64,000 nucleotides of DNA from an uncultured Lachnospiraceae bacterium. GTDB taxonomy: Bacteria; Bacillota; Clostridia; Lachnospirales; Lachnospiraceae. The notes below the pieces were generated by a model, which did no database searches, was not told where the DNA came from, and was given only the letters and a program-made list of their open reading frames with translations. The DNA lies in NCBI GenBank assembly GCA_949740725.1, contig CATJIO010000095.1:22078-86077 (forward strand), given 5' to 3'. Position 1 is the first letter of the stretch. Each line of letters begins with the position of its first letter. A program made the translations under genes and the position numbers. Shown piece by piece: positions 3,556-12,954 of the stretch.

Positions 3556-4653
3556 TTACTGTACAACATCTTTTGTCAAAATGGAAACGCCGGTATCAAT
3601 GTATTCGGGAGCTACAGAGCCGCCATTAATTGCAGTGATAGCAGCATACATTCCTTCATAACCCATAACGTCAGGATTCTGAGCCATGGTGCAGATCAGG
3701 GCACCATCCTTGATCAGCTGAATAACAGCATCAGACTTATCCATACCAGCAGCGATAATGCTATTGCCTTCTTCAGCTACAGCATTGCCAACACCTACAC
3801 AGGAGCCTTCATTTGCACCGAAGAGAGCAACACAGCCCTGGGAGATAAAGTTAGCAGCTGCATCTTTAGACTTGGCTGCATCGCCGTCCGCGTACTGAGT
3901 TTCCAAAATCTCAAAAGCAGTGCCTTCGAAAGCGGAACGGAAGCCCTCGTCACGGTCAACGGTGGAGGTGGTAGCTGCGTTTACGGATACGATACCAATC
4001 TTGCCTTCCTCGATGCCCTTTTCTTTTAATGCAGCCAGAACCTGCTCGCCTGCGGTCTTACCAGCGGAGCGATTGTCGGTTCCTAATCTCTGTACACAGG
4101 GATAGTTGGCAAAGGAGTCTACCTGTACGATCTTAACGCCAGCTTGATCGGCTTCTTCAAGAGCCGCGGTGATGGCATCTGGTCCATTGGCGGAAACCAG
4201 AATCGCGGTAGCGCCGTCGGCAACTGCGTTATTTACACATTCAATCTGCTTTGCGTCATCCTTTACGTCCGGGGCAATCCACTTATACTCACAGCCTAAT
4301 TCCTCTGCTGCTTGCTGGCATCCCTTATCCATATTTACCCAATGCTGATCCATGGAGTCAATGGTAATTAATACTACCTTCTGTCCGGCTCCATCTCCCG
4401 GCTTTGCAATATCGCCAGTTTCTCCGGAAAGCATATCATTTGCGGCTGCAGGAGCCTCTTCCTTCTCTGCTTCGGTTTCCGGGGCTTCCTCCGCCGTGGT
4501 CTCCTCTTTGGCCTCTTCCTTTGCCTCGGTTGCCGCTGCGGTAGTGGTCTCCGTCGGAGCTGCCGTGGTTTCATTGGAGGATGAGGAACAGCCTGCCAAC
4601 AGGGTGGCTGCCATGGCTGCCGCCATCATAAGAGATAATGCTTTTTTCTTCAT
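3556..4653 (-). CDS. Sugar ABC transporter substrate-binding lipoprotein (ribose/galactose type)
   Basis: The start at 4653 (MKKKALSLMM) is preceded by AAAGGAAGG; the longer track start at 4698 has no such site. Residues 1-22 form a lipoprotein signal with the lipobox LLAGC (Cys22). A Ser/Thr/Ala/Glu-rich linker follows to about residue 75, then a type 1 periplasmic-binding fold (VVLITIDSMDQHWVNMDKGC, GATAILVSANGPDAI, KIVQVDSF). It should catch a sugar outside the membrane and deliver it to the permease encoded just upstream on this strand. It is the last gene of the minus-strand operon. The exact sugar cannot be read; the neighbouring AGE-family epimerase suggests a disaccharide or an aldose that is epimerised after entry. 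Confidence 0.9.
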   Translation of the reverse strand: MKKKALSLMMAAAMAATLLAGCSSSSNETTAAPTETTTAAATEAKEEAKEETTAEEAPETEAEKEEAPAAANDMLSGETGDIAKPGDGAGQKVVLITIDSMDQHWVNMDKGCQQAAEELGCEYKWIAPDVKDDAKQIECVNNAVADGATAILVSANGPDAITAALEEADQAGVKIVQVDSFANYPCVQRLGTDNRSAGKTAGEQVLAALKEKGIEEGKIGIVSVNAATTSTVDRDEGFRSAFEGTAFEILETQYADGDAAKSKDAAANFISQGCVALFGANEGSCVGVGNAVAEEGNSIIAAGMDKSDAVIQLIKDGALICTMAQNPDVMGYEGMYAAITAINGGSVAPEYIDTGVSILTKDVVQ

Positions 4654-4729
4654 AATACGATACCTTCCTTTCTTAAACCTTTGTTTTATTAAAAGCATAA
4701 ACTGCTTTTAAACGAAATGTCCATAGGCC

Positions 4730-5746
4730 TCAGGCTGCCTTGTGCTTTTTCGCCTTGCCCTTTCCGGTTCTCACGATTACATCCAGAAGAACCGCTACTA
4801 CAACGATGATACCGATAACAATGTTACGGATAGCTACCGGAGCGCCGGCAAATTGAAGTCCATTCTGGAGAACCCCCCAGATAGCAGCGCCGATGACCGT
4901 TCCCAGCAGGATACCAGATCCGCCTAATGTGGATACACCGCCAATTACCGAGGCAGCTACCGCGTACATTTCATAAGAAGTACCGGCATCCATTGTTCCA
5001 GTACCAGTAGATGCACAGGTAATCAAGCCGGTGATACAGGCACAGAAGGCAGAAACCACGTAAACGTAGATAATGGTACGACTCACATTAACGCCGGACA
5101 GCCTGGCTGCGTCAATATTGCTTCCTGTGGCATAGATATGACGTCCCGTCCGGGTGCGTCCCATAATATAGTTAAAAAATGCCCATACAATAATGGCAAT
5201 CCAGAATGCGCTGAAGATGCCGGCGATCTTTCCACTGTAGAAAAAGGTACGGAAGCCTTTGGCAGCTTCGCCGATGGAATCGGTATTGTAATTACCATTA
5301 ACAATCTGGGCAATACCTCTTGCGATGGTCATGGTTCCCAGAGTGGCGATAAATGGCGGCAACTGGCATTTGGAAACCAGGATACCGTTAATGTATCCCA
5401 CCACCAGACAGCAGATCAGGGTAATCAGCACAGCTACCCAGGGATTCACCCCATGGCACATCAGGGTGGCGCTGATCATACAGCTCATTCCCACCACAGA
5501 ACCAATGGAGAGATCGATATTGCCAGTAAAGAGCACAAAGGACTGCCCTACGCCGGTTAATAGAGTAGGCGCGATCTGGCGCAGCAGATTGGCGATATTA
5601 CGGTAGGTAAAGAAGTTGGGATTGATAAAACCAAACAACATACATAAAACCGCTAAACCAATGGTTACCGTGATTACCTGTCCCATGCCCCGCTGGGATA
5701 AAAATCGCTTTACCGGGCTGAGGTTTTTCTCACTTGCGTTACTCAT
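4730..5746 (-). CDS. Sugar ABC transporter permease (RbsC/XylH type)
   Basis: The start at 5746 (MSNASEKNLS) is chosen because GGAGG lies five bases before it; the track start at 5758 overlaps this ribosome-binding site. The 338-residue product has about nine hydrophobic segments and the family signatures GNIDLSIGSVVGMSC and GGVSTLGGSGILLGTVIGA of the BPD_transp_2 permease family. The C-terminus is Lys-rich, as in many family members. One gene encodes the permease, so a homodimer is expected. It lies between the ATPase and the binding-protein genes, with 76 bases to the latter. Confidence 0.92.
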   Translation of the reverse strand: MSNASEKNLSPVKRFLSQRGMGQVITVTIGLAVLCMLFGFINPNFFTYRNIANLLRQIAPTLLTGVGQSFVLFTGNIDLSIGSVVGMSCMISATLMCHGVNPWVAVLITLICCLVVGYINGILVSKCQLPPFIATLGTMTIARGIAQIVNGNYNTDSIGEAAKGFRTFFYSGKIAGIFSAFWIAIIVWAFFNYIMGRTRTGRHIYATGSNIDAARLSGVNVSRTIIYVYVVSAFCACITGLITCASTGTGTMDAGTSYEMYAVAASVIGGVSTLGGSGILLGTVIGAAIWGVLQNGLQFAGAPVAIRNIVIGIIVVVAVLLDVIVRTGKGKAKKHKAA

Positions 5747-5780
5747 ATTTTCCTCCATATATCAAGCTTTTTGCTAAGAT

Positions 5781-7307
5781 CTATTTTTTCTCAAACTGGG
5801 TTGCCTTGGTTAAGATCTGGTCCTGGGTGGCTTCCCCTGCCATAAATTCTCCGGTAATCCGCCCGTCACACATAACCAGGATCCGGTCACTCATCCCTAA
5901 AACCTCCGGCATTTCCGAGGATACGAACATAACGCCGATACCGCTTTGCTTTAATTGATTCATCAGATTATAGATTTCAACCTTTGCCGCCACGTCGATT
6001 CCTCTGGTAGGTTCGTCAAAGATTACCACACGGGAATCTCTCGCCAGCCACTTAGCTACCACGATCTTTTGCTGATTTCCGCCGGAAAGGCTCCCTGCGT
6101 CTACCTGAGCATTGGGCAGCTTGATTTTTAGAGACTGGACAGACTGATCCACCATCTCCCTTTCCTTTTTCCGGTTCACCGTACCCAGGGGGCCGCTGCT
6201 GAGCATGTCCAGGTTAGGGAGGGCGATATTATCCGAAATACTGAGCCGAGTGCACAGTCCATCCTTCTTCCGGTCCTCTGGCGCGAGAACCAGTCCAGCC
6301 CGAATGGAATCAGAAGGATTATGGATGATTACCTCTTTTCCATCGATAAAGATCTGCCCGCTTTCCTTTGGGTCAATGCCAAAGATGGCCCGTGTGGTTT
6401 CCGTCCGTCCGGCTCCCATAAGCCCGGCGATTCCCACGATCTCCCCTTCATATAATTCTAGGTTTATATTCCGCACCAAAGGTCCGGCATTTAAGTTCTT
6501 TACCTCCAGAATCTTCTTACCCTTTTGACAGGATACATGGGGGAACTTTTCTTTGATTTCATGGCCTACCATATTGGCAATGATCTCATCCATCTTATGA
6601 ATATCGTAAGGCATCTCAGTGATGAAATGTCCGTCCCGCATAATAATTACCCGGTCTACGATGTGCTGCAGCTCTTCAAGACGATGGGATATGTACACAA
6701 TGCCGATTCCGTCTGCTTTCAGCTGATGGATGATTTTAAATAAATCGTCGATTTCCTTGGAGGTCAGGGCCGAGGTAGGCTCGTCCATGATTAGTACCCG
6801 GGCATTTTGAGAAAGAGCCTTTGCAATTTCTACCATCTGTTGCTTGGAGATGGCCAGATCGCTGACCTGTGCCTTGGGGTCAATATCAATATTTAATTTC
6901 TTCAGAATCTCCCTGGTTTCTTCATTCATCCGGTCATTGTCTAACCGTTCCTTTTTGACCAGCTCTCTTCCCAGAAAAATATTTTCTGCCACACTTAAAT
7001 GGGTGCACATATTTAATTCCTGGTGAATAATTGCCACACCAGCATCCTTGGCCTTGTTGGCGTCCCAATCCTTTACCAGTTTGCCAAATAAATGGATCTC
7101 TCCATCATCTCGCTGATAAACACCGGACAAAATCTTCATCAGAGTAGATTTACCAGCTCCATTTTCTCCTAAAAGGGCAAGAACCTCGCCGGAGTAGAGA
7201 TTAAAGCGCACATTATCCAGCGCCTTTACTCCAGGAAACTCTTTCATAATCCCTGTCATTCTTACCAGCTCTTCGCCCGCCGGCGCAGGAGTTCTGTTTT
7301 CTTCCAT
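5781..7307 (-). CDS. Sugar ABC transporter ATP-binding protein (RbsA/MglA type, duplicated)
   Basis: The 508-residue protein begins at 7307 (MEENRTPAPAG), preceded by GGAAGGAG; the upstream ATG at 7325 lies too close to the site. It carries two ABC ATPase halves. The first has an intact Walker A (GENGAGKST), an IxKQQMVEIAKAL signature and the Walker B LIMDEPTSALT. The second has the relaxed P-loop GLMGAGRTE that is normal for this family, plus LSGGNQQK and VVIFDEPTRGID. It therefore powers the neighbouring permease. Compare the adjacent dead homologue at 8729-10177, where all these motifs are lost. Confidence 0.94.
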   Translation of the reverse strand: MEENRTPAPAGEELVRMTGIMKEFPGVKALDNVRFNLYSGEVLALLGENGAGKSTLMKILSGVYQRDDGEIHLFGKLVKDWDANKAKDAGVAIIHQELNMCTHLSVAENIFLGRELVKKERLDNDRMNEETREILKKLNIDIDPKAQVSDLAISKQQMVEIAKALSQNARVLIMDEPTSALTSKEIDDLFKIIHQLKADGIGIVYISHRLEELQHIVDRVIIMRDGHFITEMPYDIHKMDEIIANMVGHEIKEKFPHVSCQKGKKILEVKNLNAGPLVRNINLELYEGEIVGIAGLMGAGRTETTRAIFGIDPKESGQIFIDGKEVIIHNPSDSIRAGLVLAPEDRKKDGLCTRLSISDNIALPNLDMLSSGPLGTVNRKKEREMVDQSVQSLKIKLPNAQVDAGSLSGGNQQKIVVAKWLARDSRVVIFDEPTRGIDVAAKVEIYNLMNQLKQSGIGVMFVSSEMPEVLGMSDRILVMCDGRITGEFMAGEATQDQILTKATQFEKK

Positions 7308-7321
7308 ACCTGCTCCTTCCC

Positions 7322-8629
7322 TCATTGTGGGATATTTTGTAACATGGATTCAATCCGCAGACAGCATTCCATCATGGCCCGATCCGTGTGGTAAATACAT
7401 TTCCACTGATTTCCAGTATCCGGAATAAGTGGTGTGCCATTCCGGCTTAAAAGCTGTCTGGATTCGCCTGCTGTAGGATTATAGAAATAGATCTGATCAA
7501 ATTCCCACAGCTCCATAAACTTTTCCAGATAACGGGCATCTCCCGTTACCTCGTAAGCATCAAAAAATCCGGTAAGGGATTCGAAATTTTGCCACCATTC
7601 CTTATCGGTGACGATCAACCGTCCATCGTGGAGGCCATCCCGATAAATCCCGCCATACTGGTGATCCCAGCCGTTTGCTACCGTATAGTCTGCAAATTTC
7701 CTGGTAAGCTCTCTGGCAGGCGGCTGTCCTAATACCTCATAGGCCCGATTCAACAGCCAGGTCAGCTCAATATTGTGGCCATAGGAGGTGGTGTCCAGTG
7801 GATTTTTATTGGCGCTCTCCGGATCACGGTCATAGTTCCAGGTTCTTCGGATAGAGATGGCAGGCTTTGGCGTAAAGTCGATCTGGAATTGGTTTCTGCC
7901 GCACCAATAGTCATAGTCCACCATGTGGGTTAACACGACAGAGATGATTTCCTCCAGCGCCCGGCGGTGAACCTCTTTGCCGCTGGCCTCGTAAAGGGTG
8001 GTGTAAGCCTCCATAGTATGCATGTGGATATCCAGAGATTTTAAATCTCCACCATATACCCCTGGACTTTCCAGCGTCCAGTCCTCACGGAAATTTTCAA
8101 AGTATCCGCCATACCGGGTATCCGCCGCGTATTTTTTCAGGGCGTCGAAGGTGCGCTCAGCATAATCTAAGCCCCTGGGATCCTTGGTGGCAAGGTAATA
8201 TTCTGCCAACGCATAAATAGCAAAGGTCTGCCCATATACCAGCTTGCCGTTATCCAGCACCAGGCCCTTTCTATCGGTCACCCAGGCCCAGCCGGTGTGC
8301 TCTTTGTCCCAGAAATGGTCAATAAAAAAGGTTACTCCCTGCTCAAGAGCCTGCCTGCAATCCTCTTCCCAGCCATAGCGCTTCGCCAGCCCGTTCCGCA
8401 AAAGAGCGGAAAATCCCCAGATCATCCTGGTCTGAGTCACAATCATCTTATCGGTAGGCGTTAAAACAGCCAGTTTCTTCATGGGATTTCCTTCCCCGTC
8501 AAAGCAAACCAGATAGCCGCCGTATTCTCGGTCAATACCATGAGAAAGCCAGAAAGGAACACTTTTTTTCATAAAGCCTTCCATTTCTGACTGAATAGTT
8601 AACAGTTTTTTTGCTATGTCTTTCTCCAT
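7322..8629 (-). CDS. AGE-family epimerase, cellobiose 2-epimerase-like
   Basis: The 435-residue protein has the (alpha/alpha)6-barrel signatures of the N-acylglucosamine 2-epimerase superfamily: YGHNIELTWLLNRA (compare GHDIE in cellobiose epimerase), a WWQNFESLTG segment, and WKCIYHTDRAMMECC (compare WKCPYHN). These suggest epimerisation or isomerisation of a glucose or mannose unit at C2, in the cytoplasm. Its stop sits 14 bases before the ATPase start, so it is coexpressed with the importer and probably acts on the imported sugar. The start at 8629 has a G-rich site (AAAGGGGG). A good internal promoter at 8669-8696 precedes it. Mannose isomerase or N-acylglucosamine epimerase activity remains possible. 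Confidence 0.85.
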   Translation of the reverse strand: MEKDIAKKLLTIQSEMEGFMKKSVPFWLSHGIDREYGGYLVCFDGEGNPMKKLAVLTPTDKMIVTQTRMIWGFSALLRNGLAKRYGWEEDCRQALEQGVTFFIDHFWDKEHTGWAWVTDRKGLVLDNGKLVYGQTFAIYALAEYYLATKDPRGLDYAERTFDALKKYAADTRYGGYFENFREDWTLESPGVYGGDLKSLDIHMHTMEAYTTLYEASGKEVHRRALEEIISVVLTHMVDYDYWCGRNQFQIDFTPKPAISIRRTWNYDRDPESANKNPLDTTSYGHNIELTWLLNRAYEVLGQPPARELTRKFADYTVANGWDHQYGGIYRDGLHDGRLIVTDKEWWQNFESLTGFFDAYEVTGDARYLEKFMELWEFDQIYFYNPTAGESRQLLSRNGTPLIPDTGNQWKCIYHTDRAMMECCLRIESMLQNIPQ

Positions 8630-8668: not shown

Positions 8669-8696
8669 ATTATAGCAGATGAGACATTTTTTGTAA
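8669..8696 (-). promoter_or_regulatory. Internal promoter for epimerase and sugar importer genes
   Basis: Read on the minus strand: TTACAA, 16-bp spacer, then TATAAT preceded by TGC (extended -10). It lies in the 99-bp gap behind the pseudo-ABC gene and ahead of the epimerase. This splits the minus-strand block into a sensing unit (regulator, kinase, dead ATPase) and a transport and metabolism unit. The response regulator may act here, but I cannot identify its site. Confidence 0.7.
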
Positions 8697-8728
8697 GGGG
8701 AGATTATTCAGAATTAGGTAGATATTTT

Positions 8729-10177
8729 TCAGAAGATTCGGCTGATAATCCCATATTCTTCCGGGTGGAGAGAAACGATATTTTGCCCGTTTTTGATGAC
8801 TTCTATCCGGTCTGACAGGTACAGGCAATCCGTAATGTAATTAGTCAAAAGGAGAATGCTAATCCCAGATTCTTTTAGTGCCTTTAACCGTTCCAGAATA
8901 TAATTCCTGCAACGCATATCTCCATAGGCAAAAGGCTTTTTTATAATTAGAATTTTCGGATGAAACAGGCTGATTTTATTGTAGATAAGCCCATATTTTT
9001 CTCTCAAGGTCAGTCCGCCAATATGCCGTTCGTCCACCAATTCCCCGGCTTCCCGGTAGTATTCATTGCGGACACTGTGAAGGAAAGCTGGCTTTAATAT
9101 GCTTTTACGCAGCTTCCGATCCAGGAGGAAACTGAGGTTTTCCAGGTAGGACATTTCCTGAAAAAGGAAGGTCTCTGTAGGATTGTCATCTAGGATAATC
9201 ATGCTCCGATCTAGACAGTCTCCTTTCTGCTTTCGAATATCCCTGCCCTGGCAGAGGATGCTTCCCTCATAATCCGTTTCCAGTCCGGTCAGGATGTCTA
9301 ACAGCTCATCAGTGACCTGATTATCCGAGTCCAGCAGGGTGATACATTCCCCTGGCCCAGCGCTTAAATTTAAGTGCTGGATGGCAATGGAGGAGAGATT
9401 GTCCAGCTGAATAATGGGATCCCCAGCCGCCTGGCAGCGGTATGCCTTATACCCTTCAAAAGAGAGCACGTAAGGGGCAAAGGCGGTCTGATGGAAATCC
9501 TTTTTTTCGAAGATCCGTTTTATCCTGCCGCTGGAAAACAAAGCAATGCGATCACAAATTTCAAACATAATCCAGTGATGATAACAGATGTACAGAGAGG
9601 CTACATTTAGCTTTTTCAGCTTTAAGAGAAACTGATGAAACTTCTCATAGTCTGCCTGGCTAATGATTTTTTCTGGGCTTAAAAAAATAAGAAGGCGGCA
9701 TCCCATCAGGTAAGCCTTGGCGGCCTCTACAATGATCCGTTCCATGGTGGATAACCGAGATACCCGCTGATTTAAATTGATGTCAAAAGAAAGTTCCTGG
9801 AACACCCGAAGGGCCTGTTCCATAAGCACGGTTTCGTTGATTACATACTTTCGAAAGCCTGGACGCATCACAAAAATATTGTCCGCAATGGAGAGATCCT
9901 GGATGAGGGAACTTTTTTCATCAATGGTGTAAACCTTATTTACAGTATAATCGCTGTTTAAATAGCTGTTAACCAGCCGCCCTTCAAAATAGATTCTTCC
10001 AAAATCAATGGGAAGATTTCTGGCAAGAAGCTTTAACAGTTCGCTTTTCTCCCGATCATTGACTGAGACCAGGCCCAGGATTTCTCCTTCACAAATATAA
10101 AAGGAAAAGTTGTCCAGATAAGTAGCGCCGTCTTCCTGCCTTGTCACATTTTCAAATCGCACAATTTCTTTTTTCAT
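8729..10177 (-). CDS. Catalytically dead RbsA-like double ABC protein (putative regulator)
   Basis: The 482-residue protein aligns by eye in layout with RbsA-type tandem ABC ATPases (MKKEIVRFENVTRQEDG, then GEILGL). Every catalytic motif is degraded. The first P-loop reads SVNDREKSELLK instead of GxNGAGKST. The first signature is LSTMERIIVEA and its Walker B LLIFLSPEK has no Asp/Glu. The second P-loop region is LLDSDNQVTDEL, its signature LTLREKYG and its Walker B ILIIKKPF. ATP hydrolysis is therefore very unlikely. It sits 7 bases behind the histidine kinase gene and just ahead of a sugar importer with a normal ATPase. I infer a regulatory or scaffold role, perhaps coupling transporter state to the kinase. 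I know of no proven function for such proteins. Confidence 0.8.
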   Translation of the reverse strand: MKKEIVRFENVTRQEDGATYLDNFSFYICEGEILGLVSVNDREKSELLKLLARNLPIDFGRIYFEGRLVNSYLNSDYTVNKVYTIDEKSSLIQDLSIADNIFVMRPGFRKYVINETVLMEQALRVFQELSFDINLNQRVSRLSTMERIIVEAAKAYLMGCRLLIFLSPEKIISQADYEKFHQFLLKLKKLNVASLYICYHHWIMFEICDRIALFSSGRIKRIFEKKDFHQTAFAPYVLSFEGYKAYRCQAAGDPIIQLDNLSSIAIQHLNLSAGPGECITLLDSDNQVTDELLDILTGLETDYEGSILCQGRDIRKQKGDCLDRSMIILDDNPTETFLFQEMSYLENLSFLLDRKLRKSILKPAFLHSVRNEYYREAGELVDERHIGGLTLREKYGLIYNKISLFHPKILIIKKPFAYGDMRCRNYILERLKALKESGISILLLTNYITDCLYLSDRIEVIKNGQNIVSLHPEEYGIISRIF

Positions 10178-10184
10178 CGTTGGC

Positions 10185-11189
10185 TTAATCCTTAACTACG
10201 GGAAGGGTGATCTCTGCGTCGGTGCCTGCATTTGGCTGGCTGTAGATATAAATTCCATATTCTTCTCCAAAGAGAAGCTTGATTCGGTTATTCACATTGC
10301 GAACAGCAATGCCATTTCTGCTGCTGCCCTCGGATGCATCTTCCAGACGAAGGGAGCGGAGAGTCTCATTGATCTTCTTTACCTGTTCTTTCCCCATACC
10401 GATTCCATCATCGGAAATCATGATAATCAGGTGGCAGTCGGTCATGGTGATCTTTATGGTCAGCTGCCCTGTACCGATCTTCTGCTCAAGGCCGTGATAA
10501 ATAGCATTTTCCACAAGGGGCTGCAGGGTAAGTTTTGGTATCTGACAACGGAGAACCTCATATTCATCATCACAGTCATAGCTGACACTGAATTTTAGCT
10601 TATCACCGAACCGAAATTGCTGAATGTAATAATAATTTTCCACATTTGCCAGCTCCTCCTCCAGGGATACCAGGTTATTTACCTGAGAGATGGTATAGCG
10701 GAAATAGGTAGCTAGAGCTTCGGTCATTTCTGCAATGGTGTCCACTCCTGCGATTACCGCCTCCGCTCTGATCCCCTCCAATGTATTATAGAGAAAATGA
10801 GGATTGATTTGGTTCTGGAGAGCCAGGTATTCTGACTGCTTTTTCGAGGTGCTGATCAGCTTATTCTTGTCCAAAAGGACAAAAAAACGCTGGAACATTG
10901 CCTGCTCTTCTGAGCTTAAAGGATATTCCAGGTTATAAATATCCTCATAGCTATCTCCCTTGGCAAACATAGATTTTATCCGATTATTCAGCATTAGCGG
11001 GCGATAAATTTCCCGGTAACCGTAGTACATTAAAAAGAGGAAAATAACGGTCAACACCGTGGAAAAAATTTTCACTTTAAGGTATGCGCTTTCCTGAATA
11101 AAAATAGCAAGAAGGAGGGCCAACATAAAAATCATGGAGGCGACAGCAAAGTAGCGGATTCGGTTTAAGAGATATCTCTTGTTTCTCAT
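10185..11189 (-). CDS. YesM-type sensor histidine kinase with minimal extracytoplasmic part
   Basis: The start at 11189 (MRNKRYLLNR) overlaps the stop of the upstream response-regulator gene as ATGA; the longer track ORF lies inside that gene. The 334 residues begin with two transmembrane segments (about 10-32 and 38-60) joined by only a few residues, so there is almost no outside sensor domain. A His_kinase domain follows with NQINPHFLYNTLEG, whose His (about residue 130) is the phosphoacceptor, then an HATPase with LQPLVENAIYHGLEQ and ISDDGIGMG. With its partner YesN-like regulator it should control the adjacent sugar genes. The signal probably enters through the membrane or cytoplasm, possibly through the neighbouring dead ABC protein. 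Confidence 0.92.
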   Translation of the reverse strand: MRNKRYLLNRIRYFAVASMIFMLALLLAIFIQESAYLKVKIFSTVLTVIFLFLMYYGYREIYRPLMLNNRIKSMFAKGDSYEDIYNLEYPLSSEEQAMFQRFFVLLDKNKLISTSKKQSEYLALQNQINPHFLYNTLEGIRAEAVIAGVDTIAEMTEALATYFRYTISQVNNLVSLEEELANVENYYYIQQFRFGDKLKFSVSYDCDDEYEVLRCQIPKLTLQPLVENAIYHGLEQKIGTGQLTIKITMTDCHLIIMISDDGIGMGKEQVKKINETLRSLRLEDASEGSSRNGIAVRNVNNRIKLLFGEEYGIYIYSQPNAGTDAEITLPVVKD

Positions 11190-12811
11190 GAGTAGATCTT
11201 CCTGTATTCTCCCGGCTTTAATCCGGTATATTTGATAAAGCACTTGGTAAAGTATTTCACATCCCCATAACCGACTTTTTCGCAGACCAGATGCATTCCA
11301 TCATTGGTAGTAACCAATATTTTTTTTGGGGCTTCCATTCGGGCCGACTGAAGGAATTCCAGGAAAGAGACGCCGGTTTCTTTCTTAAAAAGAGTACTGA
11401 AATAATTGGGGGCAAAGCCTGCCATGGCGCTGACCTCTTCTAAGGTTATGGGCTTTTGATAGTTATCTTGAATATATTGTTTGGCCAGCCGGATAGGTTT
11501 ATTATCCTCAGAGCGTTTTACTTCCACCGCGTTTTTAAAGGAGGTGCAGATGGTATTGGCAAGATGGCTGAATAACCGCTGGATATTGGGACAGTCGTCA
11601 GCCGACTGGTTAAAGGTATCCATGAATTTCTTCTCGTTTTCGATATTTATTTTTTTATTTTTCATGTAGAAGAGGTAAAGGTTGCACACCTCTTTTGACA
11701 GCTGTAGAACCTCATAACCAGTGACCTCGGGAGTCCCTTGAAGCTGCTCCATCAGGCAATAGATTACTGTCCGCATTTCTACTACATTTAAGCTTTCCAA
11801 CGCCCGCTCAAAATCTTTATTAAAGCGATGGAAATCGTCGCTGTTGATAAAATGATCGTTGCGCTGCTGCTGGAAATCAATGGTTTCAATTACCCGCCCA
11901 GTTCCATTGATAATCCGCTGGTGGAGCATAAATCGGGCCTGGGAAAGAGAGGATCGGATTTGATGTCCTCTGTTCCAAGGGGCAGCTTCTCCGACACCGA
12001 TGGTAATTTCAATTTCCTGGATAATGGATTCCAGAGTTTTCAGCGCATCCAGCATCTGGCGGATTCCCCTGCGGACATTTTTCAACGCATCCTCATTGTA
12101 ATTCATTAAAATGTAGGTGGTGGAACATTCCACATAAATTTCATAGTCAAAGCAGTCAGTGGCTAAAAGCTGGGCAGTTAAGTCTGTGGCTTTGTTGGCC
12201 AGAAAAGTGAGATTGCTGTCATCGTGGCCGATATTGTCAAACTTAATTCCGATCACTTGAAATAATCCTTCACGGAAATGGAAGTGATACTGGCTGTTTA
12301 CCACGCTCATGGACTGACTGGTTTCCTGGTGTAAGCTGCTGTAAATAATTTGTGAGATAAAACTGGTGCGAAGCCTGCCGGCGTCATTTTTTAGTACCAG
12401 GCGGACTCGCTCCTCGAAGCTGAGCTGTTCATGCTTTTCTTTATAAATGGCGACGATCTTTATTAAGGTATCCCGCAGTTCTTCTTTGCGGATGGGCTTT
12501 AAGAGATAATTCCGGACGCCATAACGGATGGCAGTCTGAGCGTATTCAAAATGCCGGTATCCACTGATGATGATGATCTCAGTATCTGGGGAATGTTCTT
12601 TTATTCTAGCGATCAGCTCCATGCCGTCGATTCCCGGCATGCGGATATCGGTAATAATAATTTCTGGCTTATGCTCCATGGCCTCTTTGATGGCAGATAA
12701 TCCATTAGAAGCAGTAGCTACTACCTGAAGCCCTAAATTTTCCCAGTCTACCAGCTTTAAAATCAGCTGGCATATTTTTTCTTCATCATCTGCGATTAAA
12801 ACCTTCAGCAT
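11186..12811 (-). CDS. YesN-type response regulator with AraC-family DNA-binding domain
   Basis: The start at 12811 (MLKVLIADDEEKI) has AAAGGA upstream; the track start at 12895 adds a tail unlike receivers. The 541 residues comprise a receiver with the acidic pair DDEE, phosphoacceptor Asp in IIITDIRMPG, a Ser in IISGY and Lys in LLKPI, then a long middle region with a GGDEF-like or regulatory fold that I cannot assign, and a C-terminal AraC HTH (ITLEEVSAMAGFAPNYFSTLFKKETGVSF). It should bind near promoters of the sugar transport genes after phosphorylation by the kinase encoded next, whose start overlaps its stop by 4 bases. Confidence 0.93.
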   Translation of the reverse strand: MLKVLIADDEEKICQLILKLVDWENLGLQVVATASNGLSAIKEAMEHKPEIIITDIRMPGIDGMELIARIKEHSPDTEIIIISGYRHFEYAQTAIRYGVRNYLLKPIRKEELRDTLIKIVAIYKEKHEQLSFEERVRLVLKNDAGRLRTSFISQIIYSSLHQETSQSMSVVNSQYHFHFREGLFQVIGIKFDNIGHDDSNLTFLANKATDLTAQLLATDCFDYEIYVECSTTYILMNYNEDALKNVRRGIRQMLDALKTLESIIQEIEITIGVGEAAPWNRGHQIRSSLSQARFMLHQRIINGTGRVIETIDFQQQRNDHFINSDDFHRFNKDFERALESLNVVEMRTVIYCLMEQLQGTPEVTGYEVLQLSKEVCNLYLFYMKNKKINIENEKKFMDTFNQSADDCPNIQRLFSHLANTICTSFKNAVEVKRSEDNKPIRLAKQYIQDNYQKPITLEEVSAMAGFAPNYFSTLFKKETGVSFLEFLQSARMEAPKKILVTTNDGMHLVCEKVGYGDVKYFTKCFIKYTGLKPGEYRKIYS

Positions 12812-12954
12812 ACCTGTATCCTTTCCGTACCCTTTGCTTCTGTTTGCGGTCAGATGCTCATAACAACAATCTTTTCCTACGTAACAGTTTACCATTTTTA
12901 AAACGCTTTTACCAGAGGTTTACTTTGATATTTCTACACTTCAAAATTATGTAC

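Follow-up and report, generated by a model that had tools for sequence, protein, structure and literature searches.

A catalytically dead RbsA-like tandem ATPase encoded beside a sensorless YesM-type kinase is conserved in Lachnospiraceae and other Bacillota and may serve in signalling

The window, by which we mean the whole 64,000-nucleotide stretch of DNA analysed here, carries on its minus strand a two-component system, a gene for a tandem ABC ATPase that we call pseudo-RbsA, and a sugar importer operon:

11186..12895, minus strand: YesN-type response regulator with an AraC DNA-binding domain (domain match)
10185..11243, minus strand: YesM/LytS-type histidine kinase (PF06580 and HATPase_c) with two transmembrane (TM) helices and no extracytoplasmic domain
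8729..10177, minus strand: pseudo-RbsA, a tandem ABC ATPase without working ATP sites (482 aa, ATG start, intact open reading frame)
7322..8629, minus strand: AGE-family (N-acylglucosamine 2-epimerase/cellobiose 2-epimerase-like) enzyme, the first gene of the importer operon
5781..7325, minus strand: intact RbsA-type tandem ATPase of the importer
4730..5758, minus strand: RbsC-type permease, the proposed docking partner
3556..4698, minus strand: RbsB-type sugar-binding lipoprotein

With a PF06580 kinase and an AraC-type response regulator, the first two genes meet the make-up of a YesM/YesN (LytS-type) two-component system. The kinase is likely to start at the ATG at 11189, which gives a protein of 334 aa, and the true start of the regulator is probably inside the 11186..12895 frame; a relative with 92% identity begins ~28 codons later.

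The best named matches of pseudo-RbsA are the RbsA/XylG/AraG-type tandem ATPases, at 124.8 bits against a curated cut-off of 699, and the Pfam ABC_tran family matches its first half only. Using the intact RbsA of the same locus as a reference, we located the remains of the catalytic motifs and two segments that have been kept:

10040..10066, minus strand: former P-loop 1, SVNDREKSE, residues 38-46 (alignment to intact RbsA)
9872..9895, minus strand: groove segment retained in NBD1, LSIADNIF, residues 95-102; N100 is invariant, as it is in intact RbsA
9671..9688, minus strand: former Walker B1, IFLSPE, residues 164-169
9302..9331, minus strand: former P-loop 2, DSDNQVTDEL, residues 283-292
9134..9154, minus strand: kept groove segment of NBD2, MSYLENL, residues 342-348, with N347 invariant
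8927..8947, minus strand: former Walker B2, IIKKPFA, residues 411-417

In the first half, P-loop 1 has changed from GENGAGKST to SVNDREKSE, with all three glycines lost and only a K-S pair left, the signature reads LSTMERI, and Walker B1 has changed from MDEP to FLSP. In the second half, P-loop 2 has gone from GLMGAGRTET to DSDNQVTDEL, the signature from LSGGNQQK to LTLREKYG, and Walker B2 from FDEP to IKKP. Nothing is thus left of P-loop 2, of either signature or of either Walker B acid pair, while the P-loop 1 lysine is retained, and the residues used for hydrolysis by CUT2 (RbsA) ATPases (Walker A/B, signature and H-loop) are missing. A sequence-only reading of this locus had described both P-loops, both signatures and both Walker B acids as lost; all of these motifs are indeed damaged, but the lysine-serine pair of P-loop 1 has survived. 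The same reading held that the RbsA-like tandem layout was retained, which is borne out by profile matches to the tandem ABC architecture of CUT2 importer ATPases and by AlphaFold2, where a single-chain prediction from 23 homologues gave two ABC domains (mean pLDDT 86, pTM 0.77) that align to the solved DppD/OppD tandem ATPases across both halves with a TM-score of 0.70-0.74. It had also placed an intact RbsA-like ATPase one gene further on, and this is the gene at 5781-7325, beyond that of the AGE-family epimerase.

Pseudo-RbsA belongs to a conserved, undecayed Bacillota family, of which we collected 49 full-length homologues, none with working ATP sites. Homologues were found in 22 of 299 genomes of a family sample and in 36 of 397 when searched with a profile, as well as in other families of the phylum and in one Erysipelotrichaceae record; searching genome contigs with a single protein recovered few relatives and profile searches performed much better. 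Within the 49 proteins the aspartate of Walker B2 is never present and its glutamate only three times, both signatures and P-loop 2 are missing in nearly all, and the P-loop 1 lysine is retained in 21. A near-normal P-loop 1 (GLSGAGKT/S) persists in the pseudo-ATPases of L112, L114 and L115, as expected since these are early-branching. In contrast, all 46 intact RbsA proteins encoded in these loci retain essentially all catalytic residues, and over the 34 near-invariant RbsA catalytic columns the pseudo-ATPases retain a mean of 20% of residues. L116 was left out of the pseudo-ATPase count, having scored as a normal RbsA, and L117 starts within the pseudo-ATPase gene at a contig edge.

A maximum-likelihood tree places the pseudo-ATPases outside the clade of the 46 intact RbsA proteins, all on one side of a branch with a support of 100, and they span several Bacillota families, although this tree was built with a quick method and contains some long branches. 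The family also has near-invariant residues of its own that are not found in RbsA (E4, R7, Y399 and P407), and all listed homologues are open frames except two, which have one stop each in the aligned stretch. Compared with the 92%-identical relative, which likewise has no working ATP sites, dN/dS was 0.040 for pseudo-RbsA, 0.035 for the kinase, 0.040 for the regulator and 0.025 for RbsA. Because this relative is equally dead, because dN/dS is this low and because 49 homologues lack working sites, the state of pseudo-RbsA cannot be put down to chance or decay. The claim that selection has kept a non-hydrolytic copy is upheld by the same figures; intact motifs in close relatives or frequent frameshifts would have refuted it, and we instead found relatives without working motifs and open frames under purifying selection.

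Conservation within the family is not evenly spread. Groove segments that come directly after each Q-loop are conserved above the rest of the protein (p=5e-5), and the asparagines N100 and N347 in these (A)(E/D)N segments are kept in every pseudo-ATPase. From general knowledge of ABC importers, and without a structure of the proposed complex, we take these segments to be near the groove that receives the coupling helix of the permease. The P-loop columns fall at the 43rd-46th percentile of conservation, at or below the family average. We also considered whether the former catalytic columns are the fastest evolving, which was not supported as they are merely average (p=0.13).

The kinase of the window has a loop of 4-8 residues between its two TM helices, and AlphaFold2 predicted helices at residues 2-49 and 54-95 with a 4-residue turn between. 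Likewise, the paired kinases of other loci are ~347 aa with two TM helices a few residues apart and a phosphoacceptor near residue 134, and the usual YesM extracytoplasmic sensor domain is absent from these proteins, which have a helical hairpin only. Ten PF06580 kinases are encoded in the genome of the window, and the other nine measure 496-662 aa and carry an extended segment between membrane helices, ahead of the last TM helix, where the paired one has a loop of 8 residues between its two. Rare paired kinases have one or no membrane helix; that of L132 (minus strand, from 1486) is 283 aa without a TM helix in the whole open frame, and its gene lies ~50 bp after that of the regulator and is followed by the pseudo-ATPase. 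The kinase frame of L134 (minus strand, from 1471) opens with HflX-like GTPase sequence, which is either a fusion or a contig-edge artefact. Because the paired kinase has no sensing domain, another protein must provide its input; the pseudo-ATPase is its sole constant neighbour besides the regulator. We regard the missing ectodomain as the strongest hint that the pseudo-ATPase supplies this input.

The sequence-only reading had suggested counting how often such proteins stand beside YesM/YesN genes, and the outcome was clear. A histidine kinase gene lies directly upstream of the pseudo-ATPase in 49/49 loci with a readable upstream gene (among them L039, where the kinase frame is broken), most often with an overlap of 4 bp, and the response regulator is next in 47/50 loci (L063 and L039 counted via tblastn). 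L063 was rejected as an exception to this pairing; antisense frames had masked its kinase and RbsA, and tblastn located both in place. Conversely, when the kinases nearest to the family profile were collected from 100 genomes, 29 of 30 had a pseudo-ATPase directly downstream, and the same was true for 18 of the 19 that had not been used in building the profile, with the most divergent of these pseudo-ATPases being assigned by a pseudo profile score above the RbsA score and not by catalytic motifs. L147 is the only one of the 30 close sensorless kinases without an adjoining pseudo-ATPase. The sensorless kinase and the pseudo-ATPase therefore form a near-obligate pair.

Most pseudo-ATPase loci also have an intact RbsA-RbsC-RbsB importer, with RbsA and RbsC within ~10 kb in 43/50. 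In L051 the gene order is regulator, kinase, pseudo-ATPase, RbsB and RbsC, with no orthologous RbsA within 20 kb. A second RbsC lies directly 3' of the pseudo gene in L110. No importer was seen in the 20 kb examined around L049, and L112 has a binding protein only and no full importer; the partner in these two loci may be encoded elsewhere or be different. That pseudo-RbsA might serve an importer without an ATPase of its own was ruled out for the window by the intact RbsA at 5781-7325, although this seems to be the situation in L051. RbsB-type lipoproteins of 611-627 aa were found at L033:640-2523, L045:3907-5781, L047:13512-15347 and L098 (plus strand, from 4616), that of L033 having two near-identical sugar-binding domains in tandem in one protein. 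In L112 and L115, AraC-type regulators of 774-816 aa follow the binding-protein gene, adjoining the set of regulator, kinase, pseudo-ATPase and binding protein, and their long C-terminal part looks glycosidase-like.

Using tree distances from 32 loci, pseudo-ATPase distances correlated with those of the regulator (Spearman 0.90), the kinase (0.84) and the permease (0.71). The correlation with the permease remained after accounting for regulator and kinase (partial 0.49, permutation p 0.002), whereas that between kinase and permease (0.55) fell to a partial value of 0.10 after all other proteins. Statistically, the pseudo-ATPase is thus the bridge between kinase/regulator and permease; the correlations are nevertheless modest and owe something to common ancestry and to linkage of the genes, which limits their weight.

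De novo motif discovery across loci returned AATnnCCCCCTAATTCnAAAGATnnnCCCCTT, two half-sites 21 bp apart and ~20 bp before a -10 box, and in the window a site of this kind occupies the gap between the pseudo-ATPase and the importer operon:

8695..8726, minus strand: operator-like site AATATCTACCTAATTCTGAATAATCTCCCCTT, tandem half-sites 21 bp apart, putative regulator binding site
8669..8697, minus strand: importer operon promoter, -35 CTTACA, 17 bp, extended -10 TATAAT (8674-8669) with TG before

A model trained without the window scored 29.6 bits at 8695-8726, with a runner-up of 15.4 in the 64 kb, and a relaxed pattern occurred once in the 3.34-Mb genome, compared with no occurrence of a reversed control. 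In 16/26 held-out loci, the top match (up to 20 kb) immediately preceded importer or sugar genes and was correctly oriented. The -35 CTTACA overlaps the second half-site, and two helix turns between half-sites overlapping a -35 box fit AraC-type activation; that the YesN-type regulator binds this site is inferred. A second strong match in L037 (15212-15243, 37.5 bits) stands before a gene for a 576-aa protein that lies immediately upstream of that for the regulator, which suggests further regulon members. Neither this kind of site before the importer nor the missing kinase ectodomain had featured in the sequence-only reading.

We lean, without being firm, towards a three-component sensor in which pseudo-RbsA on RbsC relays the substrate-bound state to the kinase and sugar genes are switched on. 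This rests on what was observed: the ATP sites are lost and the fold is conserved, the kinase has no sensor and is near-obligately paired with the pseudo-ATPase, selection is purifying, and a shared site precedes the importer. In this model a YesMN-type signalling system has pseudo-RbsA as a third part that it cannot do without, and the kinase, with its short membrane hairpin, would by itself be blind to the outside. Having kept the tandem shape and the permease-facing side, and presumably without normal ATP binding or hydrolysis, pseudo-RbsA would take the position of the working RbsA on RbsC, giving a transporter-shaped complex that could accept sugar-loaded RbsB and could not pump. The shape change induced by binding would pass through pseudo-RbsA to the kinase, and the phosphorylated AraC-type regulator would then bind the tandem operator and turn on the epimerase-RbsACB operon. 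Docking on RbsC and contact with the kinase are inferred, with no complex model and no experiment behind them, as are the sign of the response, binding of the regulator to the site and the identity of the sugar. The earlier proposal that the pseudo-ATPase is a signal path for a YesMN-like system has gained strong support, with its docking on permease or kinase still an inference.

The main rival to this three-component model is that the pseudo-ATPase is a soluble cytoplasmic sensor, whose remodelled pockets bind a metabolite such as a sugar phosphate or nucleotide and which acts on the kinase without contacting the permease. The protein does track kinase and regulator more tightly than permease, early-branching members retain a near-normal P-loop 1, one paired kinase has no TM helix and no importer is near L049. 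However, the former nucleotide pockets have not been conserved as a new pocket while the groove has been kept, the association with permease distance persists beyond kinase and regulator, and a permease lies near the pseudo gene in L051 and L110, so we consider a soluble sensor rather unlikely. Residual, atypical ATP binding by a slow or nucleotide-sensing ATPase subunit could draw on the same features of P-loop 1, namely the lysine in 21/49 and most of the loop in L112-L115, yet nearly all members have lost P-loop 2, both signatures and the acids of Walker B2, and the window protein has no P-loop glycine at all, making this a very weak candidate.

The RbsA-like shape, the retained groove residues and the presence of an importer in most loci are what would be seen if pseudo-RbsA were a transport brake, competing with RbsA for the permease and lowering uptake, its position in the operon only ensuring co-regulation. 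We think this improbable, if slightly less so than residual ATP binding, as it leaves unexplained the absence of the kinase ectodomain, the near-obligate pairing in both directions and loci without an intact RbsA such as L051. A functionless, decaying rbsA duplicate would account for the loss of all catalytic motifs, but open frames in nearly all members, new near-invariant residues and a clade across several Bacillota families count against it, and with dN/dS and conservation across 49 members contradicting it we rejected decay as practically inconceivable.

The nearest precedent for the three-component model is PstSCAB-PhoU-PhoR of E. coli, in which a kinase without a periplasmic sensor reads the state of an ABC importer and PstB variants locked in one conformation still signal without transporting (PMC5775613). 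Both systems combine a kinase without an outside sensor domain with an ABC importer; however, in Pst the signalling ATPase is a working importer subunit and PhoU the adaptor, whereas here a separate dead tandem ATPase accompanies a YesM/LytS-type kinase. In BceRS-BceAB, widespread in Bacillota, an intramembrane-sensing kinase depends on a neighbouring ABC transporter (PMC3023708, PMC6978683), and like BceS the window kinase has two TM helices with a very short loop, but there the transporter, BceAB, is active, bears a large extracellular loop and is itself the sensor, with no pseudo-ATPase, and here a PF06580 kinase stands beside an RbsABC-type importer. A third protein also gives sugar input to the two-component system controlling an ABC sugar importer in the XylFII-LytS/CuaDSR systems of clostridia (PMC10384115), although that binding protein contacts a kinase ectodomain of ~270 residues, in contrast to the cytoplasmic dead ATPase and missing ectodomain here. 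With RbsA and other CUT2 tandem ATPases, pseudo-RbsA shares ancestry, tandem fold and groove asparagines, and unlike them it has no catalytic motifs, forms a separate clade and has a kinase as its constant genetic partner. Open-licence full text yielded no account of a pseudo-ATPase that serves a two-component system, subscription papers and preprints being outside this scope. We class the system as a variant of transporter-coupled sensing, with reasonable odds that the pseudo-ATPase receptor represents a separate, new class.

Transporters with a second role in sensing are known, but we found none in which a pseudo-ATPase is retained for the sole purpose of letting a kinase read a permease. 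We regard it as evenly balanced whether a dead importer ATPase has here been turned into a dedicated signalling subunit, forming a non-pumping receptor for a blind kinase in an undescribed three-component class that is widespread in Lachnospiraceae and other Bacillota. If true, this would explain the signal source of ectodomain-less YesM-type kinases and provide a spotting rule (a short PF06580 kinase whose next gene is RbsA-like but lacks Walker motifs), and genes of this kind annotated as sugar ATPases would be regulators. Signalling would also have been separated from pumping naturally, so that the reading of transporter conformation by a kinase would become testable.
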